64,000 nt of DNA from contig NZ_RKHQ01000001.1 of the NCBI RefSeq assembly GCF_003751805.1, positions 1,178,001 to 1,242,000 of the forward strand, written 5' to 3'. This document shows, piece by piece, positions 74-15,351 of this stretch. The stretch comes from Salana multivorans (lineage in GTDB: Bacteria; Actinomycetota; Actinomycetes; Actinomycetales; Beutenbergiaceae). Every line of letters starts with the position of its first letter. The stretch's first letter is position 1. Both the position numbers and the translations under genes were made by a program. A model generated the notes under the pieces. That model did not search any database and was not told the DNA's origin. It saw only the letters and a list, made by a program, of their open reading frames with translations.

Positions 74-1405
74 TCAGCTCGTGCGTTCGGCGCCGGGGCG
101 CGCGTAGTAGTGCCAGGTGAGGACGGTGCAGATGGCGAAGTAGACGGCGGCGCCGATGAAGAAGGCGCGCGGGGCGACGACCGTGAGCGCCATCCCGACG
201 AGGAACGGCCCGAACGCCGCGATGGCGGAGGTGAAGCCGATGACGCCGCCCGCCTGCCGCTTGGGGAAGATCATCGGCATCTGCTTGAACGTGCCGGCGT
301 TGCCGATGCCGGCGAACGTGAAGATGCCGAGCATGCCGATGAGGAACGGCAGGAACTGGCTGCCGCTGGTGGGGGCGAGGAAGAAGACGGTCCAGACCGT
401 GAACGCCGTCATCCCGATGCCCGAGACGAGCGTCCAGATCGCCCCGCCGAACCGGTCGCACAGCGGGCCCCAGGCCGCCCGGGTGAGCGAGCCGAGGAAC
501 GGGCCGAGGAACGCGAACTTCACGGGGTTGGGCGCGTCGGCGAAGCTGCCGAACTCGGCCTTGACGATGAGGCCGAACTGGGCGGCGAAGCCGGCGTAGG
601 CGCCGAAGGTCATGGTGTAGATCGCCGTCATGATCCACGTGTGCTTCTCGCGGAAGATGTCGAGCTGGTCGCGGAAGTTCGCGTTGATCGGGACGCGCTT
701 GAGCACGATGGCCGCGAGCACGACGCCGGTGATCACCCACGGCACCATGACGAACGCGATCTGGTGCACCCAGATGCTCTGCCCCGCGGTGTCGGTCTGC
801 GGCGCCAGGGCGCCGGCCCCGAGGAGGCCGAACCCGACCACCCACGGGCCGAGGAACTGGATGAGCGAGACGCCGAAGTTGCCCAGGCCCGCTTGGAGGC
901 CGAGCGCCGTCCCCGCCCTGCTCCGGGGGAAGAAGTAGCTGGTGGACGGCATGAACCCGGCGAACGCGCCGCCGCCGATGCCCGTGAGGAAGGACAGGAT
1001 GAGCAGGAGCGCGTAGGGCGCGTTGGGGTCCCGGACGACGAACGTCCAGCCGAGCACGGGGATGAGCAGGAGCGTCGTCGCGCCGCCCACGAGCGTCCTG
1101 GTCCCGACGATCGGCGGCAGGAACATGAAGATCAGCCGCATGAGGCCGCCGGAGAGCCCGGGGACCGCCGCGAGCCAGTAGAGCTGGTTGGCCGTGAGGT
1201 CGAACCCGATGGAGTTGAGCATCGGCGCGATGGCGGAGACCAGGTACCACACCATGAAGGCGAGGGTGAGGTTGTAGGTGGTGACCCAGAGGGTGCGCCA
1301 GGCGAGGGAGGAGTCCCAGGTGCGCTCGTCCTCGGGGTTCCAGTTCGACAGGTCCTTGGCAAGCATGCTCGTGGCCTGCGTCTCGGGTGCAGCAGCAGCG
1401 CTCAT
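74..1405 (-). CDS. narK: NarK-family nitrate/nitrite MFS transporter
   Basis: The 443-residue product is a major facilitator protein with about twelve membrane segments that moves nitrate in and/or nitrite out across the cytoplasmic membrane. It carries both glycine-rich nitrate signature stretches of the NarK/NasA family: one around GIGGGAFAGFMPSTSYFFP in the first half and one around GIGNAGTFKQMPMIFP in the second. The chosen ATG starts MSAAAAPETQ and has GGAG 7 nt upstream. The frame is open for 37 more codons upstream (to 1516), but that extension is low-complexity and lacks a good ribosome site. The gene sits just before another minus-strand gene (start at 52) and about 6.5 kb from a copper nitrite reductase and the molybdenum cofactor genes, consistent with nitrate respiration. 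Family assignment is secure; transport direction cannot be read from sequence. Confidence 0.93.
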   Translation of the reverse strand: MSAAAAPETQATSMLAKDLSNWNPEDERTWDSSLAWRTLWVTTYNLTLAFMVWYLVSAIAPMLNSIGFDLTANQLYWLAAVPGLSGGLMRLIFMFLPPIVGTRTLVGGATTLLLIPVLGWTFVVRDPNAPYALLLILSFLTGIGGGAFAGFMPSTSYFFPRSRAGTALGLQAGLGNFGVSLIQFLGPWVVGFGLLGAGALAPQTDTAGQSIWVHQIAFVMVPWVITGVVLAAIVLKRVPINANFRDQLDIFREKHTWIMTAIYTMTFGAYAGFAAQFGLIVKAEFGSFADAPNPVKFAFLGPFLGSLTRAAWGPLCDRFGGAIWTLVSGIGMTAFTVWTVFFLAPTSGSQFLPFLIGMLGIFTFAGIGNAGTFKQMPMIFPKRQAGGVIGFTSAIAAFGPFLVGMALTVVAPRAFFIGAAVYFAICTVLTWHYYARPGAERTS

Positions 1406-1759
1406 GGCGGCTCCATCGCATCGGTGGGACAACGACGTCGGGGTCCCGACTGAGGCCTCAGTCTCCGACGACCGTACCCCGTCTGCCACCGCGGGGGCCG
1501 TGAATAACCCGGTCATTTCTCTCGGCGGTTCCGAGAGCGTCCGTGCAGGTGGGAGGCGGTTCGGCCGCGCACCGACCGGGGAAATACGTGACGTGGGCGA
1601 TGCATAAAAACGGTTGGACGGAGGCCTTCCCGAATTCGCGTCGCATTCGCGTGAGGAATGCCTTTCGAGTGCCGCATCTGCGTCGCCTCGAGAGGCGGTC
1701 GGCGGGTGACGCGGTGGGCGGGGCGGCGGGTCGCGCGGCGGGTCGGCCGCCCGAGGGCG
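1406..1759. other. Intergenic region upstream of narK
   Basis: No gene is supported in these roughly 350 bases. The stretch separates narK from the SecD-head-like gene, both on the minus strand, so it should hold the narK promoter. Locally AT-richer patches occur near 1500-1520 and 1590-1635. A perfect palindrome (1448-1463) lies 43 nt before the narK start. I did not find a convincing FNR or Crp site. The end nearest 1759 is low-complexity GGCGGGTCG-type sequence. Confidence 0.6.
1448..1463. promoter_or_regulatory. 16-bp perfect palindrome in the narK leader
   Basis: GACTGAGGCCTCAGTC reads the same on both strands and lies 42-58 nt upstream of the narK ATG, a position suited to an operator or leader hairpin. 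The regulator is unknown. Confidence 0.4.
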
Positions 1760-2794: not shown

Positions 2795-2816
2795 CGACCC
2801 GTCGGTCAGCGGGTCG
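2795..2816 (-). terminator. Hairpin at the 3' end of the HTH regulator gene
   Basis: CGACCCG and CGGGTCG form a 7-bp stem with an 8-nt loop overlapping the regulator's stop codon. There is no U-tract, so termination is plausible but unproven. Confidence 0.35.
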
Positions 2817-3555
2817 CGGGGGCGGGATGGCCGGCGTCGAGCGCGACGTCGCGCCCGCCCCCGGACCGGCGGCGGATGGCCAGCGTGCAGTGGTGCGACC
2901 CGACGAACGGCGTCAGCCGCTCCACCGTCATGGCGCCGCCGGCGCTCTCGAGCACGCCCTCGGCGAGACCGGAGTGGACGCCGCAGACGACGTCGGGCCG
3001 GTCCTTCGCCATCTCGAGGAACGGGCAGCGCCACAGGTGGAAGGTGAGGGTCTCGGAGTCCCACTCCGGGTCGAAGCCGAACGAGTCGAGGTGCGCCTCG
3101 AGCGCGAGGATGCCGCGCTCGGCGTCGTCGTGCGGCAGCGCGTCGAGCCGGTCCGGCGGCAGGCCGCGGCCCACGACGGCGCCGGCCGCCTCGGCCCGCG
3201 CCTGCGTGCCCGGCTCGCGGGCGGCGAACCCCTCGATGAGCGCCCGCGCGAACGCCGTCCGCGCGAGCGTGGCCTCGAGGCGTCCCGACGCCTCGGCGTC
3301 GGCGGCCACCTCGGCGCCGCTGGTCGGGCGGTAGAACATCCGGGGCCGCCCCCGGACCGTGCGCACCTCCGCCTCACGCCGGACGAGGTCGACCTCGAGC
3401 AGACGGGAGAGGTGCTCGCGCACGGTGTTGGGGTGCAGGCCGGTGCTCTCGGCGAGCTCTGCGACGGTGGCCGTCCCGCGCTGCTGCAGGAGGTGCAGCA
3501 GCTCGTTCCGGCTGGGGGACGCGAGCACGCGCGCGCGCCCGATCTCATCGACCAT
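2806..3555 (-). CDS. SufR-like HTH regulator with a C-terminal cysteine cluster
   Basis: This 249-residue protein begins with an ArsR/MarR-like winged helix (residues 8-75: helix-turn-helix around VAELAESTGLHPNTVREHL, wing RGRPRMFYRP). The C-terminal half has a cysteine/histidine set resembling the iron-sulfur-binding half of SufR-type regulators: Cys177, Cys191 (13 residues between), His194, His221, His222 and Cys223. SufR proteins use cysteines to hold an Fe-S cluster and in mycobacteria respond to nitric oxide. Here the gene diverges from the NnrS-like/nitrite reductase operon, with an inverted repeat in the shared promoter region. The natural guess is an NO- or oxygen-sensing regulator of nitrite reduction. 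The start has AAGGA upstream. The Fe-S and NO roles are inferred; the fold assignment is firm. Confidence 0.75.
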   Translation of the reverse strand: MVDEIGRARVLASPSRNELLHLLQQRGTATVAELAESTGLHPNTVREHLSRLLEVDLVRREAEVRTVRGRPRMFYRPTSGAEVAADAEASGRLEATLARTAFARALIEGFAAREPGTQARAEAAGAVVGRGLPPDRLDALPHDDAERGILALEAHLDSFGFDPEWDSETLTFHLWRCPFLEMAKDRPDVVCGVHSGLAEGVLESAGGAMTVERLTPFVGSHHCTLAIRRRSGGGRDVALDAGHPAPATR

Positions 3556-3640: not shown

Positions 3641-4876
3641 GTGGAAACCTCTGCCCGACCCTCGGCCGTCGGGGACGCCCCCGCGCGCGGCGCCGCCGAG
3701 ACGGCGGCGAGGCCGGCGACGCGCGCGCACCCCCGCGCCCTGTTCCTCGTGCCGGGCGGGCTCGCCCTCCTGGGCGGCATCGCCGCTGCGTTCGGCCTGC
3801 TCGGGCTCCCCCTGGCCGGCGTGCCGCAGCGCTGGGAGGAGGTGCACGGACCGCTCATGGTGCTGGCGTTCGTCGGCACCGTCATCGCGCTCGAGCGCGC
3901 GGTCGCGCTGCGCGCCGCCGCGGCGTTCCTCGCCCCCGGGCTGCTGGGCCTCGGCGGGCTCCTCCTGCTCGCTCCCGTCGAGCCCCGCCTCGCGCGGGCC
4001 GTCCTGCTCGCGGGCACGCTCGCCCTCGTCGCCGTCTACGCCCGGCTGTGGCGACGCGCGGCCGCCCTGCCGCTGCTGGTCGAGATCGTCGGCGCCGTCT
4101 GCGCCGCCGCGGCCGCGGCGCTCTGGCTCCTCGGCGTCGCGGTCCCGTTCCTCGCGCCGGCGCTGGTCGGCTTCCTCGTCCTGACGATCCTCGGCGAGCG
4201 GCTGGAGCTGGCGGCCGTCGGGTTCCGCGCGCCCGACCCCGGGCCGACCGCCCCCGAGGCCCTGGCCGCGGCCGGCGCCGGCGCGTACCTGCTCGCCGCG
4301 GCCGCCGCGCTCGTCGTCCCGGAGGCCGGCTACCGCGCGCTCGGCCTCGTCCTCGCGGGGCTCGTCGCCGTCGTCGCCCACCACGACGTCGCGCGACGCA
4401 CCGTCCGCACGCGCGGGCTCACGCGCTACATGGCGTGCGCGATGCTCGCGGGCTACGCGTGGCTCGCCGTGGCCGCGGGCGTGTGGGTGGTCGCCGGACC
4501 CGCCTGGCAGGGCCGGGCCTACGACGCGGCCCTGCACGCCGTCTTCCTCGGCTTCGTGCTCTCGATGATCATGGCGCACGCGCCGGTCATCCTCCCGGCG
4601 GTCCTGCGCCGCCCGCTGCCCTACCGCCGGGTGCTCTACCTCCCCCTCGCCCTGCTGCACGGCTCGCTGCTCGTGCGCCTCCTGGCCGGCGACGCCTGGG
4701 ACCTGCCCCTCGCCGTCCAGGTCGGCGGCGTCGGGAACGTCGTCGCCGTCCTCCTCTTCGTCGTCCTCGCCGCGGGCAGCGTCACCCTGCCTCGCGCACG
4801 GCGCGACCCGCCCGCCGCCCGCGCGGTGCGCCCGAGCCCTCCACCCACCTCCGACATCGACGGAGCCGCGTCGTGA
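3641..4876 (+). CDS. NnrS-like polytopic membrane protein
   Basis: The 411-residue product is almost entirely hydrophobic with about ten to twelve membrane helices. It resembles NnrS, the haem/copper membrane protein linked to nitric oxide tolerance in denitrifiers. Shared-looking features are an early HPRALF segment, a VHGPLMVLAFVGTVIALERAVAL stretch (residues about 68-90), and a late LHAVFLGFVLSMIMAHAPVILP stretch with conserved-type histidines. It starts with GTG, without a ribosome site but with a -10-like TACGGT 7 nt before it. Its stop overlaps the start of the nitrite reductase fusion (GTGA), so the two are translationally coupled. Coupling to an NO-producing enzyme fits a role in NO handling or copper-enzyme support. 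The NnrS assignment rests on pattern similarity and could be off by a subfamily. Confidence 0.6.
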   Translation: METSARPSAVGDAPARGAAETAARPATRAHPRALFLVPGGLALLGGIAAAFGLLGLPLAGVPQRWEEVHGPLMVLAFVGTVIALERAVALRAAAAFLAPGLLGLGGLLLLAPVEPRLARAVLLAGTLALVAVYARLWRRAAALPLLVEIVGAVCAAAAAALWLLGVAVPFLAPALVGFLVLTILGERLELAAVGFRAPDPGPTAPEALAAAGAGAYLLAAAAALVVPEAGYRALGLVLAGLVAVVAHHDVARRTVRTRGLTRYMACAMLAGYAWLAVAAGVWVVAGPAWQGRAYDAALHAVFLGFVLSMIMAHAPVILPAVLRRPLPYRRVLYLPLALLHGSLLVRLLAGDAWDLPLAVQVGGVGNVVAVLLFVVLAAGSVTLPRARRDPPAARAVRPSPPPTSDIDGAAS

Positions 4877-7800
4877 CCATCCCCGTCGGCCCTCCCCCGG
4901 GCCAGCCCGCCGGCCCTCCTCCCGACTCCGCCGGCCGGCCCGACCCCGCGGCCGCGCACCCCGCGGCCGCGCACCCCGCGGCCGCGGCCCAGCGCGCGAC
5001 CCGGGCCAGCCTCTACGTCCCCGCGAACCTGCTCGTCCTCGCGTGGTTCGTCGGCGCCGGCGTCGTCACGCTCGGGCACCGGTTCGTCCCCGAGGCCGGC
5101 TGGCTCATGGTCCACCTCCTCCTCGCGGGCGGGGTCAGCACCGCGATCCTCCTGTGGAGCCAGCACTTCGCCGAGACGCTTCTGCGCCGACCGGCCCCGG
5201 GCGGGCGGCGGGGCCTGTGGCTGCGGCTGATCGGCTGGACGGTCGGCGCGCTCCTCGTCACGGCCGGCACCGTCCTCGGAGGGCGCGGACCCGGCCTCGC
5301 GGCGGTCGCGACCGCCGCCACGGTCGCGGGCGGCATCCTCGCCGGCGTCGTCGCGCTCGCGCACGTCGCCGTCCTCGTCCGGCAGGCCCGGGCGGGCACG
5401 GCCGGGGGCCGCGGCGGCGGCCGTGGCGCGCGGGCGGCCGGCCGTCTCCTCGGCAACCGGTTCGCGCACCTGGTCCGGTACTACGTCGTGGCCGGCGCCC
5501 TCCTCCCGCCCGGGATCGCCGCCGGCGTCCTCATGGCACGCCTCGAGCCCGGGCCCGAGCCGATGGGTCGGCTCTACCTCGCGCACGTGCTGCTCACCGT
5601 GCTCGGCTGGATCGGCCTCACGGTCGCGGGGACGGCGGTGCTCCTCTTCCCGACCGTCCTGCACACCCGGATCGACGACGAGGCCGACCGCGCCGGGCGC
5701 TGGGCCCTGCCCATCATGGGGGCCGGCCTCGCGCTCACGCTCGTCGCCACGGCCACGGGCGTGCGCGTCCTCGTCGGCCCGGGCTGCCTCGTCGTCGCGG
5801 CCGGCATCGCCTGGCTCGGCTGGCAGGCGGGCCGCGAGGCCGTGGCGGCGTCGCGCGCGGCCGGGCACACCTCCGGCACCGGGGGCGGCCTCGCCGCCTG
5901 GTCGATCGCCGCGTCGCTCGTCTGGTTCGCCTGCTGCGTCGTGGCGCTCGGCGTCACCGTCGTCCGCGCGCCGACGTGGGCCGCCGTTCCCGGCTCGCTC
6001 ACCGGGCTGGTCGCGCCGTTCGCCGCCGGGTTCGTCGCGCAGGTGATGGTCGGCTCGATGACGTACCTGCTCCCCGTCGTGCTCGGCGGGGGGCCGGGCG
6101 CCGTCCGGTGGTCGATCGCGGAGCTGACCCGGTGGGGCGGCGCGCGGTTCGTCGTGCTCAACGCCTGCGTCCTGCTGTTCGCGCTCCCGCTGCCGAGCTG
6201 GGTCGCCGTCACCGTCTCGACGCTCGGCCTCGGCTCGCTGCTCGCCTTCCTCGTCCTCGCGGTGCGCACCGTGCTGGTCCAGCGTCGCCGCCCCTCGCGC
6301 ACGCTCCCGCAGCCACGTCCGGACGCCGAGGTCGTCCGGGAGCGTCGCCTGCTCACCCGCACCCGCACCCGCACGCTCACCAGCGCCGCGTCAGGGGCCG
6401 CGCTCGTCGTGGCCGCCGTCGTCCTCGGCGTCGCGGCCGACCCGGTCGCGGCCGGCGTCACCGCGCTGCCCGCGACGGCGGCGGGCGGGTCCGCTGCCGC
6501 GAGCGGGTCCGACGCGGCGCAGCCGACGGGCGAGACCACGACGGTCGAGGTCACGATGTCCGGGATGACCTTCACGCCCGACGTCATCGAGGTCCCCGTC
6601 GGCAACGCGCTCGTCCTCGACGTGACCAACGACGGCGACCAGGTCCACGACCTCGTCCTCGCGAGCGGCGCGTCCTCGGGCCGGCTCTACCCCGGCGAGT
6701 CCGCGACGGTCGAGGCCGGCGTCATCACCGCCGACCTCGACGGCTGGTGCTCGGTCGCCGGCCACCGCGTGCTCGGCATGACGCTGCGCATCGTCGCCGT
6801 GGCGAGCGACGACGACACGACCGTGACGGCGGACGCCCCGGACGGCCACGCGGGCCACGCGGGCCACGCGGGCCACGGGAGCGACGGGACGCCCGACGCC
6901 GGCGAGCCGTCCGTCGCCGACACGGTCAACCTCGCGGCGCTGCTGCACGGTGACGCGCCGGACGGCTTCGCCGCGCGCGACGCGACGCTGGCCCCGGCCG
7001 CGACGTCGGGCACCGACGCGCAGGGCATCACGAGCGAGCCCGACCCCGACGGGACCGGGACGCTCCACCGGATCACCATGACCGTCGAGGAGGTGGAGAC
7101 GGAGGTCGCGCCCGGGGTCCGGCAGACGCTCTGGACGTTCAACGGGACGGCGCCCGGCCCGGTGCTGCGCGGGAAGGTCGGCGACACGTTCGAGATCACC
7201 CTGGTCAACGACGGCTCGCTCGGCCACTCGATCGACTTCCACGCCGGTGCCCTCGCGCCCGACGAGCCGATGCGGACGATCTCGCCGGGCGAGTCCCTCA
7301 CCTACGTCTTCCGGGCGGAGCGCTCGGGCATCTGGATGTACCACTGCTCGACCATGCCGATGAGCCTCCACATCGCGAACGGGATGATGGGCGCGGTCGT
7401 CATCGACCCCGAGGACCTCGCGCCGGTCGACCGCGAGTACGTGCTCGTGCAGTCCGAGCTCTACCTCGGGCCGCAGGGCGGGACCGCGGACCCGGAGCGG
7501 ATCGCGACCCAGAACCCGGACCTCATGGCGTTCAACGGCTACGCCAACCAGTACCGCTGGGCGCCGCTGCGGGCCGAGGTCGGCGAGCGCGTGCGGCTGT
7601 GGGTGCTCGACGTCGGGCCCAACCGGCCCAGCGCGTTCCACGTCGTCGGGGGGCAGTTCGACACGGTCTTCCTCGAGGGGGACTACGCGCTGCGCGACGG
7701 CGGGTCGACGGGGTCGGGCGGCTCGCAGGTCCTCGGCCTGCTGCCGGCCCAGGGCGGGTTCGTCGAGCTCACCTTCCCGGAGGCCGGGCACTACTCGTTC

Positions 7801-7911
7801 GTGACGCACGCGATGTCCGACGCCGAGAAGGGCGCGGCGGGCACCGTCGAGGTCCGCGAGCCGGGCGTCGGCCCCGGTTCCGACGCCGCCGCGTCGGGGT
7901 CCGCTGGCTAG
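4873..7911 (+). CDS. nirK: Fusion: polytopic membrane domain, cupredoxin and copper nitrite reductase
   Basis: A single 1012-residue protein predicted to reduce nitrite to nitric oxide outside the membrane. Residues 1-35 are Ala/Pro-rich. Residues 36-480 form about twelve helices with histidines such as His81, His98, His238 and His264. A further helix lies near 500-525. A plastocyanin-like domain (about 558-645) has a full type-1 copper set, His592, Cys626, His631 and Met636 (C-x4-H-x4-M). A His-rich linker follows (GHAGHAGHAGHG). From about 685 there is a two-domain NirK with every expected ligand: His785, Cys825, His833 and Met838 for type-1 copper; His790, His824 and His979 for type-2 copper; catalytic Asp788 and His923. 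The GTG start overlaps the upstream stop. The layout suggests built-in electron delivery from the membrane through the cupredoxin to NirK; that route is inference. Classical NirK is about 340-380 residues. Confidence 0.88.
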   Translation: MTIPVGPPPGQPAGPPPDSAGRPDPAAAHPAAAHPAAAAQRATRASLYVPANLLVLAWFVGAGVVTLGHRFVPEAGWLMVHLLLAGGVSTAILLWSQHFAETLLRRPAPGGRRGLWLRLIGWTVGALLVTAGTVLGGRGPGLAAVATAATVAGGILAGVVALAHVAVLVRQARAGTAGGRGGGRGARAAGRLLGNRFAHLVRYYVVAGALLPPGIAAGVLMARLEPGPEPMGRLYLAHVLLTVLGWIGLTVAGTAVLLFPTVLHTRIDDEADRAGRWALPIMGAGLALTLVATATGVRVLVGPGCLVVAAGIAWLGWQAGREAVAASRAAGHTSGTGGGLAAWSIAASLVWFACCVVALGVTVVRAPTWAAVPGSLTGLVAPFAAGFVAQVMVGSMTYLLPVVLGGGPGAVRWSIAELTRWGGARFVVLNACVLLFALPLPSWVAVTVSTLGLGSLLAFLVLAVRTVLVQRRRPSRTLPQPRPDAEVVRERRLLTRTRTRTLTSAASGAALVVAAVVLGVAADPVAAGVTALPATAAGGSAAASGSDAAQPTGETTTVEVTMSGMTFTPDVIEVPVGNALVLDVTNDGDQVHDLVLASGASSGRLYPGESATVEAGVITADLDGWCSVAGHRVLGMTLRIVAVASDDDTTVTADAPDGHAGHAGHAGHGSDGTPDAGEPSVADTVNLAALLHGDAPDGFAARDATLAPAATSGTDAQGITSEPDPDGTGTLHRITMTVEEVETEVAPGVRQTLWTFNGTAPGPVLRGKVGDTFEITLVNDGSLGHSIDFHAGALAPDEPMRTISPGESLTYVFRAERSGIWMYHCSTMPMSLHIANGMMGAVVIDPEDLAPVDREYVLVQSELYLGPQGGTADPERIATQNPDLMAFNGYANQYRWAPLRAEVGERVRLWVLDVGPNRPSAFHVVGGQFDTVFLEGDYALRDGGSTGSGGSQVLGLLPAQGGFVELTFPEAGHYSFVTHAMSDAEKGAAGTVEVREPGVGPGSDAAASGSAG
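4948..4986 (+). repeat. 15-bp tandem repeat in the nirK fusion N-terminus
   Basis: GCGGCCGCGCACCCC occurs 2.6 times in tandem and encodes the AAAHP-AAAHP-AAA stretch ahead of the first membrane helix. Copy number may vary between strains. Confidence 0.7.
6844..6876 (+). repeat. 9-bp tandem repeat encoding a His-rich linker
   Basis: GGCCACGCG is repeated three and two-thirds times. It encodes the GHA repeats between the cupredoxin and NirK parts of the fusion. A flexible copper-binding linker is possible. Confidence 0.75.
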
Positions 7912-7920: not shown

Positions 7921-9141
7921 GTGCGCCTGCCCGCCATCGTCGAGCCCGGCCCGCCGCTGTCCGCGGCCGAGGCCGAGCGCACCGCGCGCCACGCGCGCCT
8001 GCCCGAGCTGGGCGAGCTCGGCCAGCGCCGGCTGCACGCCGCGCGCGTCCTCGTGCTCGGTGCCGGGGGCCTCGGTGCCCCCGCCCTCCTCTACCTGGCG
8101 GCGGCGGGCATCGGCACGATCGGGATCGTCGACGACGACCAGGTTGACGTCAGCAACCTGCACCGTCAGGTGATCCACGGCGTCGAGGACGTCGGAGGGG
8201 CGAAGACGGCGAGCGCCGCGCGGCGGCTGCGCGAGGTGGCGCCGTCCGTCGAGGTCGTCGAGGTGCGCGAGCGGCTGACGCCGGAGGTCGCCGCGGACGT
8301 CATCGGCGGCGGGTGGGACGTCATCCTCGACGGGACGGACAACTTCGCGACCCGCTACCTCGTCGCGGACACCTGCGCGCGGCTCGGCGTCCCGCTCGTG
8401 TGGGCGAGCGTGCTGCGGTTCGACGCCCAGGTCGCGGTGTTCTGGACGCCGGCGGCCGACCGCGCGGACGCCCAGGGGTTCCCGGACGGGGTCGCGGGCG
8501 TGACGCTGCGCGACCTGTTCCCCGAGCCGCCGGCGCCCGGATCCGTTCCCTCGTGCGCCGAGGCCGGCGTCCTCGGGGCCCTGTGCGGCATGGTCGGGTC
8601 GATGATGGCGCTCGAGGCGATCAAGCTGGTCGCCGGGATCGGCGAGGTCCTGCTCGGGCGGGTCGCGGTGGTCGACGGGCTCACGCTCCGCGTCCACGAC
8701 GTCCCCCTCCGCCCCGCCGATCACGACGCCACCCCGCCCCGCGCCCGGCCCGCGCCGAGCACGGCCCTCCCGCGCACCGGGCCCGCCGCGGCGGTCGCGG
8801 CACCCGCTGGCCCCCTCGTCGACGTGCGCGAGCCGGCCGAGGCCGCCGAGGCCGGCGACGGGCTGGCCGGAGCCGTCGTCGTGCCCATCGGCGTCATCGA
8901 GCAGGCCGCCCGGTCGGCCGACCCGATCGCCGCGCTCGCGGTCGCCGGTCTCCCGCCGACCGTCTCCGGTGACGACGTCAACCACCTTCGCCTCTACTGC
9001 CGCTCGGGCGCTCGGGCCCAGCGCGGGGCACGTCTCCTGCGCTCGCTCGGCGTGCCGGCCGTCGCGCTCCCGCCCGAGGACGTCGACCGCCTCCGGGCCG
9101 CGTCCGCGCTGACCGACCGGCCCGAGGGAGCCCCGCGATGA
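7921..9141 (+). CDS. moeB: MoeB/MoeZ-type adenylyltransferase with rhodanese domain
   Basis: This 406-residue protein activates the C-terminal glycine of a ubiquitin-like sulfur carrier (MoaD or a related protein) by adenylation and, in MoeZ-type fusions, passes sulfur to it. The ThiF/E1 domain covers residues 20-265, with the nucleotide loop GAGGLG at 47-52, the DDDQVDVSNLHRQ segment after it and the catalytic-type Asp in LDGTDNF. A rhodanese-like domain covers about 300-395, with Cys360 in YCRSGARAQR as the persulfide cysteine. The two CXXC zinc pairs of E. coli MoeB are not evident, as in some MoeZ relatives. The start is GTG with a -10-like TAGGCT 6 nt upstream and no ribosome site. moeA overlaps its end. 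Confidence 0.85.
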   Translation: MRLPAIVEPGPPLSAAEAERTARHARLPELGELGQRRLHAARVLVLGAGGLGAPALLYLAAAGIGTIGIVDDDQVDVSNLHRQVIHGVEDVGGAKTASAARRLREVAPSVEVVEVRERLTPEVAADVIGGGWDVILDGTDNFATRYLVADTCARLGVPLVWASVLRFDAQVAVFWTPAADRADAQGFPDGVAGVTLRDLFPEPPAPGSVPSCAEAGVLGALCGMVGSMMALEAIKLVAGIGEVLLGRVAVVDGLTLRVHDVPLRPADHDATPPRARPAPSTALPRTGPAAAVAAPAGPLVDVREPAEAAEAGDGLAGAVVVPIGVIEQAARSADPIAALAVAGLPPTVSGDDVNHLRLYCRSGARAQRGARLLRSLGVPAVALPPEDVDRLRAASALTDRPEGAPR

Positions 9142-10475
9142 GCCTTGTCCCCGTCGCCGACCACCTCGCGGGCATCCTCGCCGGCGTCCGACCGCTCCCC
9201 GAGCTGGAGGTCCGGCTCGGGGCCGCGCTCGGCCACCGGCTCGCCCGGCCGGTCGCCGCGAGCCTCGCCGTCCCGCCGTGGGAGAACTCCGCGATGGACG
9301 GCTACGCCGTGCGGTTCGCCGACGTGGCCGAGGCCGCCCCCGAGCGCCCGGTCACGCTGCGCGTGGTCGGCGACGTGCCGGCCGGCTCGCCCGAGGACCC
9401 GCCGATCGGACCGGGCGAGGCCGTCCGGATCATGACGGGCGCGTCCCTGCCGACCGACGCCGACACGGTCGTCCAGCTCGAGCACACCGACCGCGACGAC
9501 CCCGCGGCCCCGCTCGCGTCGACCGTCACGGTGCTGCGCGGGCCGCGGGCCGGGATGCACGTGCGACGGGCGGGCGAGGACCGTCGGGTGGGCGACCCGG
9601 TGGCCGCGGCGGGCACGCTCGTGACGGGCCCGGTCGCCGCCGCGCTGGCCTCGACCGGCGCGGGCACGGCGTGGGTCCGGCGCCGGCCCCGCGTCGCGGT
9701 CGTCGCCACGGGCAGCGAGCTCGTCGCGCCCGGTGAGCGGCTCGGCCGCGGCCGGATCCCGGACTCCAACTCCCTGCTGCTGGCCGGCCTGGTCGCGGAT
9801 GCCGGGGCCGAGGTCGCCGCCGTCGAGCACGCGTCGGATGCTCCCGGCGACCTCGAGCTGGTCCTCGCCCGGGTCGTCGACGGGGCGGCGCCCGACGTCG
9901 TCGTCCTCACCGGCGGCGTCAGCCAGGGAGCCCACGACCCGGTCCGGCGTGCGTTCGCCGGCTCGGACGCCGTGCGGTTCACGCGGGTGGCGATGCAGCC
10001 GGGCAAGCCGCAGGCCGTCGGCCGGCTCGGCGCCGACGGGCCGCTTCTGCTCGGCCTGCCGGGCAACCCGGTGAGCGTGTGGGTCTCGTTCCTCGTGTTC
10101 GCCCGGCCCCTCCTGCTGACGCTGGCCGGCGCCCCCGACGACGTCGTGCTCCCGCGGCCGACGCTCGCCGTCGTCGAGACCGGCTGGCGCACCCCCGGGG
10201 GACGCGACCAGTACCTCCCGGCGCGGATCGCCGAGGCCGCCGGCGTCGCCGACGCGCGGGACGCCGGCCCGGCCCTCGTCGGCCCGGCGGCCGCGCTCGG
10301 CTCGAAGTCGCACCTGGCCGCGAGCCTGGCCGCCGCCAACGGGTACGCGATCGTCCCGGCGGCCGACCAGGGTCGCCACGACGACGGCCGGGTGCACCCC
10401 GGCGACGTCGTCGCGGTCGTCCGGCTCGCCCTCGAGCTGCCGCACCCGGCCGGCGCGCCGCGCGGTGGGGTCTGA
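9138..10475 (+). CDS. moeA: Molybdopterin molybdotransferase MoeA
   Basis: MoeA inserts molybdate into adenylylated molybdopterin in the cytoplasm, the last common step of molybdenum cofactor synthesis. The 445-residue length is normal. Diagnostic motifs are present: PPWENSAMDGYAVR near residues 46-59, VRIMTGA, the VVATGSELV strand starting the MPT-binding domain, IPDSNS, TGGVSQGAHD, MQPGKPQAVG and GLPGNPVSVWVSF. A C-terminal domain IV follows. The ATG overlaps the stop of the moeB-like gene by ATGA. The next reading frame starts 1 nt after its stop, so it belongs to a tightly packed cofactor operon running from the moeB-like gene to moaD. Confidence 0.95.
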   Translation: MSLVPVADHLAGILAGVRPLPELEVRLGAALGHRLARPVAASLAVPPWENSAMDGYAVRFADVAEAAPERPVTLRVVGDVPAGSPEDPPIGPGEAVRIMTGASLPTDADTVVQLEHTDRDDPAAPLASTVTVLRGPRAGMHVRRAGEDRRVGDPVAAAGTLVTGPVAAALASTGAGTAWVRRRPRVAVVATGSELVAPGERLGRGRIPDSNSLLLAGLVADAGAEVAAVEHASDAPGDLELVLARVVDGAAPDVVVLTGGVSQGAHDPVRRAFAGSDAVRFTRVAMQPGKPQAVGRLGADGPLLLGLPGNPVSVWVSFLVFARPLLLTLAGAPDDVVLPRPTLAVVETGWRTPGGRDQYLPARIAEAAGVADARDAGPALVGPAAALGSKSHLAASLAAANGYAIVPAADQGRHDDGRVHPGDVVAVVRLALELPHPAGAPRGGV

Positions 10476-10476
10476 C

Positions 10477-11196
10477 GTGTCCGCCGTGGATCCGCGGCTC
10501 GCGGCGGCCGTCGAGGCCAGCCGGCGCTGGTACGACGCCGTGGCCGAGCTCCACGACCTGCCCGTGCGCGTCGACGACCGGCTGTGGGTCGCGCTCGCCG
10601 AGCCACCGCCCTGGCACTCCGCGGTCAAGACGCTGCGGGCCGACGTCGACGCCGCCGCGGCGCTCGGGGTATGGGGCGACCGCACGGGCGGGTCGGTTGC
10701 CGACTCGTTCGGCGTCCTCGACCTGGCCGGGCGCGGGTTCGACCTCCTGATCGACGCGACGTGGGTCTACCACCCCGGCGTGACGGCGCCCTGGCCGGAG
10801 CCGTGGCGCGTCGTCCGCGAGCCCGACCTGCTGACGCGCTGGTGCCACCGGCACGACTACGCCGGTGTGCTGCCGCCCGCCGTCCTCGACCGCGCAGACC
10901 TCCACGTGCTCGCACGCATCGTCGACGACGAGCCGGTCGCGGGTGCCGTCGTGCACGACGCGGGCGGCACTGCCGGGATGTCCAACCTCTGGTCCGTCTC
11001 GGGCGTGCCGACGGAGGCCGACGTGACCGACGTCCTCGCCTGCGCCGGCGTGCTGCTGCCGGGCCGGGCGGTGACGGACTACGCGTGGGACGAGGAGCTC
11101 GCGGCCGTGCTCGCGGCGGGCTTCGAGCCGGTCGGCCCGCACCGCGTCTGGAGGACGAGCACCCCACCCCGACGACCAGAGCCGAGGCCCCGATGA
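10477..11196 (+). CDS. GNAT-like hypothetical protein in the Moco operon
   Basis: The 239-residue product is not one of the known cofactor enzymes. Its last third (VTDVLACAGVLLPG ... LAAVLAAGFEPVGPHRVWR) resembles the closing strand-helix-strand of a GNAT acetyltransferase, and residues 150-185 would fit the central sheet. The acetyl-CoA loop (R/QxxGxG/A) is not clear, so activity is doubtful. It starts with GTG 1 nt after moeA; a second in-frame GTG lies four codons earlier inside moeA. It ends overlapping moaC by ATGA. Such a tight insertion between moeA and moaC suggests a role in making or protecting the cofactor or its enzymes, but no function can be assigned. Confidence 0.6.
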   Translation: MSAVDPRLAAAVEASRRWYDAVAELHDLPVRVDDRLWVALAEPPPWHSAVKTLRADVDAAAALGVWGDRTGGSVADSFGVLDLAGRGFDLLIDATWVYHPGVTAPWPEPWRVVREPDLLTRWCHRHDYAGVLPPAVLDRADLHVLARIVDDEPVAGAVVHDAGGTAGMSNLWSVSGVPTEADVTDVLACAGVLLPGRAVTDYAWDEELAAVLAAGFEPVGPHRVWRTSTPPRRPEPRPR

Positions 11197-11663
11197 CCTT
11201 CACCCACCTGGACTCCGCCGGCCACGCCCGCATGGTCGACGTGACCGAGAAGACGCCGACCGTCCGCTCCGCGACCGCCGCCGGCTTCGTCCACTGCTCG
11301 CCCGGCGTCGTCGCGGCCCTTCGCGACGGGAGCACCCCCAAGGGCGACGTCCTGGCCGTCGCCCGGATCGCCGGCATCGCCGGTGCCAAGCGGTGCGCCG
11401 AGCTGCTGCCGCTCGCGCACGTCATCGGCGTGCACGGCGCCGTCGTCGAGCTCGACGTCACGGACGCCGGCGTCGCCGTGTCGGCGACGGTCCGCACCGC
11501 CGACCGGACCGGCGTCGAGATGGAGGCCCTCACCGCCGTGACGGTCGCGGCGCTCGCGATCGTCGACATGGTCAAGGGCCTGGACAAGCACACCTGGATC
11601 GGCGAGGTCCGGCTCGAGGCCAAGACCGGCGGTAGGTCGGGCGAGTGGCGGCGCTCGTCATGA
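11193..11663 (+). CDS. moaC: Cyclic pyranopterin monophosphate synthase MoaC
   Basis: MoaC turns the 3',8-cyclo-GTP made by MoaA into cyclic pyranopterin monophosphate, the first stable cofactor intermediate. The 156-residue protein is normal in length and fully conserved. It has the MVDVTEKTPTVRSATA start, KGDVLAVARIAGIAGAKR, the ELLPLAHVI substrate strand, GVEMEALTAV, and MVKGLDKHTWI with the essential lysines. The ATG overlaps the preceding stop, and the following mobA-like start overlaps its own stop, so it lies mid-operon. Its partner moaA is encoded about 2.5 kb away on the opposite strand. Confidence 0.95.
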   Translation: MTFTHLDSAGHARMVDVTEKTPTVRSATAAGFVHCSPGVVAALRDGSTPKGDVLAVARIAGIAGAKRCAELLPLAHVIGVHGAVVELDVTDAGVAVSATVRTADRTGVEMEALTAVTVAALAIVDMVKGLDKHTWIGEVRLEAKTGGRSGEWRRSS

Positions 11664-12382
11664 CCGAGGTCCAGCGCCCTGCCGGCCGGCGTCCCGACGG
11701 CCTGGCCGCGGTCGTGCTCTCGGGCGGGCGCGGCTCGCGGCTCGGCGGCGTCTCGAAGGCCGCGCTCGACGTCGCCGGCGTCGCGCTGCTGGACGGCGTG
11801 CTCGACGCGCTGGCCGCGGGCGGCGTGCCGGCGCGGCGCACCGTCGTCGTCGGCGACGGGCCCGAGCCGGCGCGCGACGGCCTCCTGGTGACGCGCGAGG
11901 AGCCCCCGTTCGGTGGTCCGCTCGCCGCGCTCGGGGCCGGCCTGGCGCTCGTGCCGACCGGCGTCCCCGAGGTGCTCGTGCTCGCCTGCGACCTGCCGGC
12001 GGCCCGCGAGCTGGTGCCGCTGCTCACCGGCGTCGACCCGCGGCACGGCGGCGCGTTCGGGACCGCGGTGGTCGACGCCGACGGCCGGACCCAGTGGCTG
12101 GCCGCGCGCTACCGCCGCGCCCCGCTGGCCGCGGCGATCGAGAGGGCGCGGGCGGACCTCGGCACGCTCGACGGCGTCTCGCTGCGGGCCGTGCTCGGGC
12201 CGGTGCCGCTCGCGGGCATCGCCGACGAGACCGGCGCGAGCCGCGACGTCGACACGCCGGACGATCTGGCCCGCGAGCGCCGTCGCGCCGCCGGCTCCGG
12301 CCGCGCGGCCGGCTCGGGCCGGCCGGACCCCGACGACCCAGACGACCCAGACGACGCCGACGACGCGGGAGGACCCCGATGA
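11660..12382 (+). CDS. mobA: MobA-like molybdenum cofactor nucleotidyltransferase
   Basis: A 240-residue NTP-transferase. The glycine-rich nucleotide signature LSGGRGSRLGGVSK near residues 20-33 marks the MobA/MocA group, which attaches GMP (or CMP) to the molybdenum cofactor for the DMSO-reductase family, including respiratory nitrate reductase. Further family features are the EEPPFGGPLAAL loop and the VLACDLPAA metal-binding Asp. The ATG at MTEVQRP overlaps the moaC stop as ATGA; a GTG five codons earlier is less likely. The C-terminal tail is low-complexity (repeats of DPDD and RAAGSG), probably disordered. It lies directly before the DUF6457 gene, which in other actinobacteria is often joined to this protein. 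Confidence 0.85.
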   Translation: MTEVQRPAGRRPDGLAAVVLSGGRGSRLGGVSKAALDVAGVALLDGVLDALAAGGVPARRTVVVGDGPEPARDGLLVTREEPPFGGPLAALGAGLALVPTGVPEVLVLACDLPAARELVPLLTGVDPRHGGAFGTAVVDADGRTQWLAARYRRAPLAAAIERARADLGTLDGVSLRAVLGPVPLAGIADETGASRDVDTPDDLARERRRAAGSGRAAGSGRPDPDDPDDPDDADDAGGPR

Positions 12383-12723
12383 CCGACCAGCAACGCCCAG
12401 CCCACCACCTGCCGCCGGCGGACCTCCTGCCGTGGTCCGACGCCGTCGCGGAGCTGTACCGCCTGCCCGAGCGGTTCGACGAGACGGAGCTCGGCCTCGT
12501 GCTCGACGTCGCGCGCGACGTGTCCAAGGGGGTCGCGCGCCCCGCGGCCCCCGTCTCGACGTTCCTGCTCGGCGTCGCCATCGGTCGTGGGCTGGCGGAC
12601 GGGAGCATCGACGCGGAGGACCGCACGAGCGGGCTCGCCCACCTGGCGCGGCAGGTCCAGGCGGCGGCCCTCGCCGTCCCCCTCGCCGACGCCGGTCCGG
12701 TGGCCGAGGAGGCCGGCGCGTGA
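12379..12723 (+). CDS. DUF6457 small protein of the Moco operon
   Basis: The 114-residue product is a mostly helical, soluble protein (LLPWSDAVAELYRLPERFD, then VLDVARDVSKGVARPAAPVSTFLLGVAIGRG). It matches what I know of DUF6457, an actinobacterial family found beside or fused to MobA-like guanylyltransferases. It overlaps the mobA-like gene by ATGA and moaD by GTGA, so it is co-translated with both. The constant neighbourhood suggests a helper in nucleotide attachment or cofactor delivery; its biochemical role is not established. No catalytic motif is visible. Confidence 0.65.
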   Translation: MTDQQRPAHHLPPADLLPWSDAVAELYRLPERFDETELGLVLDVARDVSKGVARPAAPVSTFLLGVAIGRGLADGSIDAEDRTSGLAHLARQVQAAALAVPLADAGPVAEEAGA

Positions 12724-12980
12724 CGGCCGCGACCGGCCCCGTGCGGGTCCGCCTCTTCGCCGGCGCGGCCGAGGCCGTCGGGACCGACGCGGTGACCAGC
12801 GGCGCGGCGACCGTCGGCGACCTCGTCGAGGAGCTGGTCGCCGCCTCGGGCGAGGCGACGACGCGCGACGTGCTCGCGCGGTGCTCCTTCCTCGTGGCCG
12901 GCCGGCGCACCGACGACCCGGGTCACGCGCTCCCGCGCGGCGGCGTCGTCGACGTCCTCCCGCCCTTCGCCGGGGGCTGA
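12720..12980 (+). CDS. moaD: Molybdopterin synthase sulfur carrier subunit MoaD
   Basis: MoaD is the small ubiquitin-like subunit of molybdopterin synthase. Its C-terminal Gly-Gly carries the thiocarboxylate that provides the dithiolene sulfurs. The 86-residue protein shows the beta-grasp pattern (VRVRLFAGAAEAVG at the start, VDVLPPFAGG at the end) and ends exactly in GG. The GTG start overlaps the DUF6457 stop. Its partner MoaE is encoded on the opposite strand about 2.4 kb away, and its activating enzyme is probably the MoeB-like protein at the head of this operon. It is the last gene of the plus-strand cofactor operon. Confidence 0.9.
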   Translation: MTAATGPVRVRLFAGAAEAVGTDAVTSGAATVGDLVEELVAASGEATTRDVLARCSFLVAGRRTDDPGHALPRGGVVDVLPPFAGG

Positions 12981-13036
12981 CGGCACCGACCGCGATCACG
13001 CGTGGACGGCGTCGGCCGGCGCCGAGGGCCCCGAGG

Positions 13037-13042
13037 TAGCCT
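13037..13042 (+). promoter_or_regulatory. Leaderless -10 hexamer before the 13050 ATG
   Basis: TAGCCT lies 7 nt before an ATG at 13050, the spacing seen at other leaderless genes here. That ATG opens a 12-codon frame, not the frame of the HEXXH protein. Confidence 0.4.
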
Positions 13043-13049
13043 GACCCGC

Positions 13050-13088
13050 ATGAGGCACCAGCAGCCCGACCCGACCCGTGACGCCTGA
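13050..13088 (+). CDS. 12-codon leader ORF overlapping the HEXXH protein start
   Basis: ATG followed by eleven codons (MRHQQPDPTRDA) and TGA. It lies exactly where the TAGCCT promoter would start a leaderless message, and it overlaps the GTG of the next gene in another frame. It may be a real leader peptide coupled to the downstream gene. Alternatively it may be the true N-terminus of that gene cut off by a small frameshift, natural or from assembly. Confidence 0.3.
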   Translation: MRHQQPDPTRDA

Positions 13089-14163
13089 GCAGGCGGCCGC
13101 GCACGCGCGGCAGTGGGAGGCGCTGGCCGCGGCCCGGACCGGCGAGGAGCGCGCCCGGGCGATCACCGAGGCCCAGGGGTGGTGGCGCGAGCACGCCCGG
13201 CTGAGCGCGGCCGCGGGACGGGTGCCGGCCGGCTACGCGGCGCCCGCGCCGCAGCGTGTCCCGTCCCAGCAACCACTCGGCGTCACCCCCTACGCCGGCC
13301 CGCCCAGCGGGCCGGTTCCCTACGGCGCCCCCGCGTACGGTGGCGCGACGCCGTACCCCGCCGGCCCGCCGCAGCGCCGGCGCACCTCGGGCTGTCTCGT
13401 CGCGCTGATCGTGACGCTCGTCGTCGGCGTCGCGACCATGCTCGTCATCGGTCTCGTGGTCACGTCGCTGAACCGCGTGGTCGAGGCCGGCCCGACGACC
13501 GCGCCGACCGTGTACCCCTCCCCCACCCAGGTCGCCCCGTCCCCGACGGCCCCGACCGACCCGCCGACGACGGCCGAGCCGACCCCCGAGCCCACGACGG
13601 CACCCCCGATGACCGACGAGGAGATGTTCCTCGGCGGCTACTGGGAGCTGCCGCTGCCGGACCCGGTCCCGCTCAGCTCCCCGCTCCCGCGGTTCAGCGA
13701 CACCTACGCCGACGCGACCGAGTGGTTCGCCGGCCACGGCATCCCCGAGATCACCGCGGTGGCGACGGACGACCCGACGCTCAACTGCGGGTTCGGCTAC
13801 GCGAACTCCGACACCTTCGTCCACGCCGGCTGCTACCAGACGAACCACCGCGACATCGTCTTCGTGTGGTGGAACGAGGACAGCACGTTCGCCCAGCGGG
13901 AGTTCCTCGTCGCCCACGAGTACAGCCACTGGTACCAGTGGCACGAGCACTTCGACGTGATGAACGCCGCCCGGTTGCAGGGGTTCTTCACCGACTCGCA
14001 GGCGTGGCGCGACGCGATGGAGTCCGACGCCACCTGCCGGGTGCTCTCGTGGGGCGGCTACGACGCGACGGTCGCCGCCGAGTCGAGCACGCCGTGCACC
14101 ACCGACGGCTGGTACGAGGGCTGGCTGATCGATGCCGCCGTCGCGCTGGGGGTCCAGCTCTAG
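13078..14163 (+). CDS. Membrane-anchored HEXXH putative metalloprotease
   Basis: The 361-residue protein has a cytoplasmic N-terminal part rich in Pro, Gly and Tyr (residues 1-100), one membrane helix (about 105-128), a Thr/Pro-rich extracellular spacer (135-180) and a C-terminal domain. That domain carries H280-E-Y-S-H284, a zinc-metalloprotease HEXXH motif, in LVAHEYSHWYQW. Cysteines near the motif (in NCGFGYANSDTF, HAGCYQTN, TCRVL and TPCTTD) could form two disulfides outside the cell. A third zinc ligand is not obvious. The GTG start has no ribosome site and a better placed promoter/ATG lies 28 nt upstream in another frame, so the N-terminus is uncertain. It lies between the two Moco gene sets, convergent with moaA. 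Substrate unknown. Confidence 0.6.
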   Translation: MTPEQAAAHARQWEALAAARTGEERARAITEAQGWWREHARLSAAAGRVPAGYAAPAPQRVPSQQPLGVTPYAGPPSGPVPYGAPAYGGATPYPAGPPQRRRTSGCLVALIVTLVVGVATMLVIGLVVTSLNRVVEAGPTTAPTVYPSPTQVAPSPTAPTDPPTTAEPTPEPTTAPPMTDEEMFLGGYWELPLPDPVPLSSPLPRFSDTYADATEWFAGHGIPEITAVATDDPTLNCGFGYANSDTFVHAGCYQTNHRDIVFVWWNEDSTFAQREFLVAHEYSHWYQWHEHFDVMNAARLQGFFTDSQAWRDAMESDATCRVLSWGGYDATVAAESSTPCTTDGWYEGWLIDAAVALGVQL

Positions 14164-14196
14164 CCGGGACGGACCCGCGCGCCTAGACCGGACGCC

Positions 14197-15351
14197 TCAG
14201 CCGCCGATGGCGTTCATCCCGCGGCGCGGCTGGAGGAAGCCCGGGTCGTCGATGCCGTGACCGGGCAGCTTCGCGCGCAGCGCCCGGCGCAGCAGGGCGT
14301 CGAGGGCAGCGTCGGTCGGGTCGTCGATCGGGTCGTCGATCGGTTCGGCGGTCGGTTCACCGGTCGGCCGGAGCACGCGGAGCAGGTCGAACTCGTCGGT
14401 CGAGAACAGGCAGTTGCGGATCTGGCCGTCGGCGGTGAGCCGGATGCGGTCGCACGCCCCGCAGAACGGCGCGGTCACCGACGCGATGACGCCGACGGTC
14501 CGTTCCCCGTCCGGCGACCCGGGCCCGTGCAGCCGCCACCGCTCGGCCGGGGCTCCCCCGCGCGCCGGCACCGGCTCGAGCTCCCAGCGCCGGCGGAGCG
14601 CGGCAAGGATCTCCTCGCGGGTCACCATGCGCGAGCGGTCCCACGTGTGCCCGGCGTCCAGCGGCATCTGCTCGATGAACCGCAGCTCGGCGCCGAGCGA
14701 GAGCGCGTAGCCGGTGAGGTCGACCAGCTCGTCGTCGTTGACGCCGCGCATCGCGACCGTGTTGAGCTTCAGCGGACGCAGCCGGCTCGCCGCCGCCGCC
14801 TCGATCCCGGCCAGCACGTCGGCGTGCCGGTCCCGGCGGGTCAGCTCGCGGAACCGGTCGGCGCGCAGCGTGTCGAGCGAGATGTTGAGCCGGGCCAGGC
14901 CGGCCTCGACGAGTGCGTCGAGCACGCGCGGCAGGCCGATGCCGTTGGTCGTCATCGCGACGCTCACGCGCTCGCCGGCCCGCGATCCCACTCCGACACG
15001 TAGCGCGGCGAGCCGCGCGACCACGTCGACGAGGTCGCGGCGCAGCAGGGGCTCGCCACCGGTGAGGCGGAACGTCGAGACGCCGGCCCGGGCCGCGACG
15101 GTCGCGACGCGGACGATCTCGTCCGCGGTCAGCACCGACTCGCGCGCCAGCCACTCGAGGTTCTGCTCGGGCATGCAGTACGTGCAGCGCAGGGAGCACC
15201 GGTCCGTGAGGGAGATCCGCAGGTCGCGGTGGACGCGACCGAACGTGTCGACGAGCCGGCGCGCCGCGCCGTCGCGGGCCGGGCGGTCGCGGCCGACCGC
15301 CGGGTCGGGCGGCGGCAGGACCGGCGTCGGCAGCCAGGCCAGCCCGGTCAC
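14197..15351 (-). CDS. moaA: GTP 3',8-cyclase MoaA
   Basis: MoaA is the radical SAM enzyme that starts molybdenum cofactor synthesis by cyclising GTP. The 384-residue protein has the N-terminal cluster motif C52-x3-C56-x2-C59 (CSLRCTYC), the SAM-binding LTGGEPLLR, the second-cluster cysteines in FCGACDRIRL and RNCLFS, and the C-terminal Gly-Gly of active MoaA (ending AIGG). An acidic Pro-rich insert (repeats of EPIDDP) precedes the C-terminus, longer than usual. The GTG start overlaps the moaE stop (GTGA), so it is the last gene of a mog-moaE-moaA operon. It converges with the HEXXH protein gene across 33 nt. Confidence 0.95.
   Translation of the reverse strand: MTGLAWLPTPVLPPPDPAVGRDRPARDGAARRLVDTFGRVHRDLRISLTDRCSLRCTYCMPEQNLEWLARESVLTADEIVRVATVAARAGVSTFRLTGGEPLLRRDLVDVVARLAALRVGVGSRAGERVSVAMTTNGIGLPRVLDALVEAGLARLNISLDTLRADRFRELTRRDRHADVLAGIEAAAASRLRPLKLNTVAMRGVNDDELVDLTGYALSLGAELRFIEQMPLDAGHTWDRSRMVTREEILAALRRRWELEPVPARGGAPAERWRLHGPGSPDGERTVGVIASVTAPFCGACDRIRLTADGQIRNCLFSTDEFDLLRVLRPTGEPTAEPIDDPIDDPTDAALDALLRRALRAKLPGHGIDDPGFLQPRRGMNAIGG

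Follow-up and report, generated by a model that had tools for sequence, protein, structure and literature searches.

An actinobacterial copper nitrite reductase (NirK) of the Propionibacterium acnes type bears a transmembrane and a cupredoxin extension in one chain of about 900 amino acids, with a CX4HX4M cupredoxin, and in the passages of PMC4770552 (a 2016 survey of nirK) that treat it the 400-amino-acid transmembrane domain is reported to be of unknown function. The same passages call the transmembrane-cupredoxin-NirK architecture 'previously found', citing Ellis 2007 (reference 20 of that paper). Here we analysed a gene of this kind in a 64,000-nucleotide stretch of the Salana multivorans genome (contig NZ_RKHQ01000001.1, positions 1,178,001 to 1,242,000), hereafter the window. 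Its product matched the actinobacterial type, with a transmembrane region of about 400 amino acids, a CX4HX4M cupredoxin (the spacing formed by C626, H631 and M636) and NirK on a single polypeptide; those passages already describe this architecture, which is thus not new here. Newly proposed here are the predicted identity of the membrane domain, called M below, and its two invariant histidines: in the open-licence papers searched we found no such assignment, nor any identification of the membrane domain of actinobacterial NirK. We put at about 0.48 the probability that the fused protein is a self-wired quinol:nitrite reductase, in which electrons would run from a membrane haem b through the cupredoxin to NirK. 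The parts of the gene are as follows.

4873 to 7911, plus strand: fused gene encoding membrane domain, anchor helix, cupredoxin, linker and copper nitrite reductase, 1012 amino acids
4996 to 6306, plus strand: domain M in the membrane (residues 42-478), with 12 helices modelled in the fold of haem-copper oxidase subunit I
5113 to 5115, plus strand: codon of H81 in helix 2, invariant in 99 of 99 rows, proposed haem b ligand
5584 to 5586, plus strand: codon of H238 in helix 6, invariant in 99 of 99 rows, proposed second haem b ligand
6319 to 6438, plus strand: helix 13, residues 483-522, anchor leading to the extracytoplasmic domains (full-chain and M models; positive-inside count)
6517 to 6801, plus strand: cupredoxin, residues 549-643, type-1 copper ligands H592, C626, H631 and M636
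6844 to 6877, plus strand: tandem repeat of a 9-bp unit (GHA) within the linker, 3.8 copies, not conserved
7066 to 7857, plus strand: NirK domain, residues 732-995, with all type-1 and type-2 ligands, D788 and H923

The open reading frame (ORF) runs uninterrupted from a GTG start at 4873 to a stop ending at 7911, and the gene is single-copy in its own genome. A search of genome contigs matched 342 stretches, 314 of them relatives, and the best 80 of these were taken; after their frames had been corrected by tblastn, they were aligned with the window protein (81 rows). Sources included Cellulomonas, Streptomyces, Microbacterium, Mycolicibacterium, Rhodococcus and Oerskovia. Both halves of the fused protein were found in 79 of the 80 relatives, the exception (L081) being split over two frames with its first part absent. 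The fusion is therefore conserved, and an assembly error or a chance fusion was ruled out. A reading made from the letters alone (the sequence-only reading) had placed a membrane domain, an extra cupredoxin and NirK on a single 1012-residue chain; this held, and the same fusion, sought in other actinobacteria, was present. Two loci stood apart by name from the otherwise actinobacterial set, one in an unverified record titled Bacillus sp. AZ43 (L046) and one in Sporosarcina beigongshangi (L076); both hold the fused gene, and their genomes are probably misnamed or contaminated. A perfect 15-bp tandem repeat (4943-4986, plus strand, 2.9 copies) encodes part of the alanine-proline N-terminus of the protein.

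The full chain was modelled from 65 rows, the window protein and 64 of the 80 loci, with one row in a wrong frame (L005, 24% identity), and reached a mean predicted local distance difference test score (pLDDT) of 85.4. M was modelled alone from 79 rows (the window and 78 of the 80 loci in corrected frames, omitting L009 and L081), giving a pLDDT of 91.5 and a predicted template modelling score of 0.90. Where about twelve membrane helices had been counted from the letters, twelve were found in the membrane domain, and the model added a thirteenth, the anchor. Foldseek ranked subunit I of cbb3 and ba3 oxidases at the top for the M model, with expect values (E) of about 2e-3. VIA-align, which re-examines Foldseek's own matches, superposed M on CcoN with Z 28.3 over 388 residues at 3.4 A, on Roseobacter NorB with Z 27.6 and on Pseudomonas NorB with Z 26.3, against a quoted typical best Z of 14 for mostly helical models without a clear match. 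M is thus predicted to have the haem-copper oxidase subunit I fold, a claim that rests on the model because sequence support is weak. With the N-terminus inside, lysines and arginines numbered 18 in inside loops and 5 in outside loops, so the cupredoxin and NirK lie outside, the placement expected for this copper enzyme.

Family searches gave little for M. Pfam and NCBIfam (E up to 0.1) recognised the cupredoxin and NirK parts and matched nothing before residue 529. The window M had no Pfam family at E up to 1, and NnrS (PF05940) was rejected as its identity on that count; among 246 genomes of the phylum, 10 had NnrS matches at E up to 1, none of them reaching the family cut-off. Pfam COX1 matched neither the window protein nor any of 10 stand-alone M proteins tested, and matched one of the 79 M rows at 1.2e-5.

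Genes for M without the fusion came from 296 sampled genomes of the phylum, 32 of which had a match, frame length marking 8 of these as fused and 24 as unfused; 20 of the 24 were fetched with flanks of 4 to 12 kb, leaving out G096, G150, G180 and G188. Ligand conservation was counted over 99 rows, 79 fused and 20 stand-alone. Across the columns of M in the window protein, histidine was invariant only at H81 and H238 (99/99). Both were likewise invariant in the 81-row alignment, H81 being kept in 80 of 80 rows, with one further row gapped, and H238 in all 81. G86, G245 and G386 were each found in 99 of 99 rows and Q390 in 98. Four membrane histidines, His81, His98, His238 and His264, had been suggested to bind haem or copper; the suggestion survives for the first and third, while position 98 was histidine in 69 rows and tyrosine in 11 of the 81-row alignment, and position 264 arginine in 58, histidine in 22 and glycine in one. 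H98, H164, H264 and H69 were ruled out as ligands on conservation.

The invariant glycines give a register relative to the oxidases, in which H81 stands at G-5 of helix 2 and H238 at G-7 of helix 6. On helix 10 the pattern H-x-H-x4-G was found in 31/31 COX1, 9/9 nitric oxide reductase (NOR) and 5/5 CcoN sequences; at this spacing M has L379 at G-7 and A381 at G-5 in place of the two oxidase histidines, and in one linear profile alignment of six the same residues fall on both NOR histidines of helix 10. No histidine was among the residues listed for 37 rows at these positions. Helix 7 (269-295) has no histidine in the window protein and no conserved histidine column in the 99 rows, leaving the CuB/FeB histidine set of helices 6 and 7 incomplete, with H238 on helix 6 and none on helix 7. 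Judged by its residues, M no longer has the oxidase-type ligands on either helix 7 or helix 10. In every one of the six profile alignments with oxidase families, H238 met a ligand-type histidine, on helix 2, 6 or 10. Within M, repeat 1 aligned with repeat 2 at an offset of 159 (P 1.4e-5), so placing G86 opposite G245. The low-spin haem of oxidases is held by helix 2 near G-7 and by helix 10 at G-5, the helix 2 register being only loosely supported here. Rotating this pair by one four-helix repeat would give helix 6 G-7 and helix 2 G-5, that is H238 and H81, and we infer that these two are its rotated counterpart. To our knowledge, this helix 2-6 position, the third pseudo-symmetric site, is left empty in known haem-copper oxidases.

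The copper domains were intact throughout. In the window protein and its 80 relatives, cupredoxin residues H592, C626, H631 and M636, NirK type-1 ligands H785, C825, H833 and M838, type-2 ligands H790, H824 and H979, and D788 and H923 were each present in 81 of 81 rows, in agreement with the full type-1 site and complete NirK ligand set, with catalytic Asp788 and His923, read earlier from the letters. The NirK part scored 155.8 bits (E 1.7e-45) against TIGR02376, under the cut-off of 296.3; by residues and fold we take it to be a copper nitrite reductase, though below this name-giving threshold. Its closest PDB sequences were Geobacillus enzymes, and the best Foldseek match of both the full chain and the cupredoxin-NirK half was the nitrite reductase (NIR) of Hyphomicrobium denitrificans. 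Linkers were 44 to 96 residues long and held at least three histidines in 43 of 81 rows. The GHA repeat, which the sequence-only reading suggested may tune the reach of the linker, is real, and as a conserved spacer it was ruled out, at least two consecutive units occurring in only one of 81 linkers. In two Streptomyces loci (L045, 3526-5016, minus strand; L049, 3426-4928, minus strand) a second cupredoxin-NirK gene, for about 500 amino acids, adjoins the fused gene, so that each locus offers a ready pair for comparison.

Some stand-alone M genes lie beside copper enzymes. A separate NirK gene adjoins M in 4 of the 20 loci, and in a fifth (L176) the neighbour encodes a cupredoxin-multicopper oxidase nearer to CopA-type oxidases. 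L186 has NirK, cupredoxin and M in that order as three separate genes. Against TIGR02376, the NirK of L186 (336.9 bits) and that of L187 (320.7) scored above the cut-off, that of L175 (294.6) just below it and that of L172 (173.7) below it. Separate genes for the parts, which the sequence-only reading had counted against the fusion if found in a close homologue, thus exist in distant relatives; their adjacency in 4 of 20 loci (5 with the multicopper oxidase) speaks for a functional link, not against the fusion. When 17 fused and 20 stand-alone M rows were placed in a tree, the fused ones formed one side of a branch with support 100/99, so that one fusion is the simple reading. The NirK neighbours were scattered over the tree, with 5 changes for 5 rows, which fits either an old association or repeated ones. 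No convincing Pfam family was found for stand-alone M among 10 tested, and a plasmid search with one stand-alone M gave no match. A NosZ-like gene lies about 2.7 kb from M in L173, and a molybdopterin oxidoreductase gene near M in L185; M may serve other enzymes too.

In the mechanism that we infer, M would be a redesigned haem-copper oxidase subunit I in which H81 and H238 are placed to hold one low-spin haem b. Menaquinol of the membrane pool would reduce this haem, which would hand the electron to the type-1 copper of the tethered extracytoplasmic cupredoxin; from there it would go on to the two NirK coppers, type 1 and type 2, and nitrite would be converted to nitric oxide (NO). Given the oxidase-like fold, a haem b site is plausible, as is an electron supply from the membrane. 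M looks like a retired respiratory oxidase and probably serves as a built-in wire feeding the enzyme electrons from the membrane. We know of no soluble cytochrome c in actinobacteria. The fuller proposal, that M is a new kind of cytochrome b with a single haem between helices 2 and 6, in which a core that once reduced oxygen or NO came to export electrons to a copper enzyme outside the membrane, making the protein an actinobacterial one-chain quinol:nitrite oxidoreductase without a soluble carrier, is tentative and somewhat doubtful. The cupredoxin step has a precedent in the H. denitrificans enzyme, where pulse radiolysis is reported to reduce the N-terminal cupredoxin copper first (relevant part of PMC7201279). 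For Bacillus azotoformans, the passages on nitrite reduction in PMC3475470 describe a membrane-associated activity that draws, either directly or by an indirect route, on menaquinol and cytochrome c.

Several results weigh against the self-wired reductase. Foldseek gave no match to the M model at E 0.001 or better, and the M profile matched no PDB sequence. The best profile match of M was COX1, at P 2.8e-4 with a probability of 41%, and in a survey of related genomes (50 of the 80 loci entered, 48 genomes covered) weak COX1 matches, E 1.4e-4 to 5.7e-3, fell on the fused proteins of only 4 of 48 genomes (L004, L035, L060 and L063, by position and frame). As for the register, one of three ba3-type sequences had H-x-H-x4-G and two did not; H81 fell on a histidine, there the helix 2 ligand, in one of six profile alignments; the alignment of repeats 1 and 2 starts at residue 102, by which point most of helix 2 has passed, and was extended back ungapped; and repeats 2 and 3 gave P 0.087, repeats 1 and 3 P 0.046 with a different offset. 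The ba3 rows, the profile registers and the lack of a significant Foldseek match count against the haem-site reading. Around M, 15 of the 20 stand-alone loci had no NirK or multicopper oxidase gene beside it within the 4 to 12 kb fetched, and the second Streptomyces cupredoxin-NirK has one anchor helix and no M. Regarding H. denitrificans NIR, the cupredoxin copper lies 24 A from the core (relevant part of PMC7201279), and altering this copper site by mutation reportedly gave a more active enzyme (relevant part of PMC4770552).

The genes around the fused gene are as follows.

74 to 1516, minus strand: NarK-type nitrate/nitrite transporter
2806 to 3555, minus strand: ArsR-type winged-helix regulator, 249 amino acids, with a tblastn match somewhere in 62 of the 80 loci
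3641 to 4876, plus strand: U411, a membrane protein of 411 amino acids whose gene shares 4 bases with the start of nirK, with its own H69, H299 and H313 conserved

U411 had a tblastn match in 72 of the 80 loci, and among the 8 unmatched L003 has almost no upstream sequence. The overlap with nirK was exactly four bases in 36 of 71 measured pairs, with mechanically chosen starts. The window U411 had no Pfam family; in its alignment (62 rows), 4 rows matched NnrS (PF05940), at best with 0.038, short of a family match. Neither homology of U411 with M (hhalign probability 1.2%) nor kinship with oxidases (hhalign P 0.15 to 0.49) was borne out. Relatives of U411 on the three proteobacterial plasmids opened lie near nitrogen-oxide genes: on pHG1 near the quinol-dependent nitric oxide reductase (qNOR), ytfE and an Rrf2 regulator, in Jiella near NnrS, hmp and NosR/NirI, and in Variovorax near NnrS. 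The ArsR-type regulator possibly controls the cassette, and from its sequence an iron-sulphur or NO sensor is possible. Several cysteines are seen in the C-terminal half of its translation. NarK lies beside narG, which is just upstream of the window, so that nitrate-to-NO genes form one island. A run of molybdenum-cofactor genes (7921-16300; MoeB/MoeZ-like, MoeA and others) directly follows nirK; each one tested was matched in 1 or 2 of the 80 related loci, within the fetched flanks. The own genome had no NrfA match.

The loss of the helix 7 and helix 10 ligands would also be expected if M were a dead oxidase remnant that only anchors and orients the copper domains, with the cupredoxin receiving its electrons from an outside donor such as the actinobacterial bcc complex, and the roughly 500-residue cupredoxin-NirK paralogues show that a form with one anchor helix exists. 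A single helix would, however, be enough for anchoring, and H81, H238, G86, G245, G386 and Q390 are kept in 98 or 99 of 99 rows, fused and stand-alone alike; we regard this explanation as unlikely, though a serious one. If M instead were a haem or copper protein aiding copper loading or assembly of the cupredoxin and NirK sites, carrying no electrons for nitrite reduction, two intramembrane histidines could bind a metal ion, and the copper enzymes beside stand-alone M in 5 of 20 loci would fit. Covalent fusion of an assembly factor would be unusual, the columns of M kept at 97% or more include neither methionine nor cysteine, and H238 meets oxidase ligand histidines in every profile alignment, which makes such a role a rather poor bet.

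M could also carry electrons through haem b yet receive them from a partner protein and not from quinol directly. U411, a membrane protein with three conserved histidines that is encoded next to nirK and matched in 72 of 80 loci, is the candidate partner. Against it, U411 was unmatched in 8 of 80 loci (L003 being almost without upstream sequence) and had a match near only 2 of 20 stand-alone M genes (L182 and L189), and we hold this explanation to be improbable. NorB is among the nearest folds, and the own genome yielded a single COX1-family match, of aa3 size, with no further oxidase or NO reductase of the family observed there; a degenerate NO reductase disposing of the NO made by NirK would suit both observations. 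In known enzymes haem b3 and FeB depend on histidines of both helix 7 and helix 10, and with no helix 10 HxH histidine in the 37 rows listed and no conserved one on helix 7 in 99 rows, an NO-handling M is very improbable.

The electron source of actinobacterial NirK is the question addressed here, and M can now be assigned a predicted fold, a pair of candidate ligands and homologues encoded as separate genes. If M is a haem b electron exporter feeding the copper domains, the haem-copper oxidase fold would have been reused in a further way, and the step from nitrite to NO in many soil actinobacteria would be readable from one gene. NO reductase-fitting matches (by score and length) in only about 8 of 48 fusion-bearing genomes, drafts in which score classes were read by us, bear on NO release.

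Compared with the Propionibacterium acnes-type NirK, the window protein has the same parts in one chain; added here to that report are the predicted oxidase fold, the two invariant histidines and the stand-alone homologues, some of them beside nirK. H. denitrificans NIR (PDB 2dv6, 6tfd) likewise has an N-terminal cupredoxin fused to NirK, but was crystallised as a hexamer of cupredoxin and NirK only, without a membrane domain. The Chloroflexi cytochrome-cupredoxin-NirK ORFs also join extra redox domains to NirK, with a cytochrome C1 instead of an oxidase-like domain, and their authors note a possible assembly artefact (passages on these ORFs in PMC8756737). With CcoN and the NorB of cytochrome c-dependent NOR, M shares the 12-helix fold over most of its length and the glycine spacing of the ligand helices, whereas it lacks the helix 10 HxH histidines, has none conserved on helix 7 and keeps invariant ones on helices 2 and 6 only. 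In function the closest analogy is qNOR, an oxidase-fold membrane enzyme fed by quinol; in contrast to qNOR, the chemistry of M-NirK would sit in the outside copper domain and not in the membrane.

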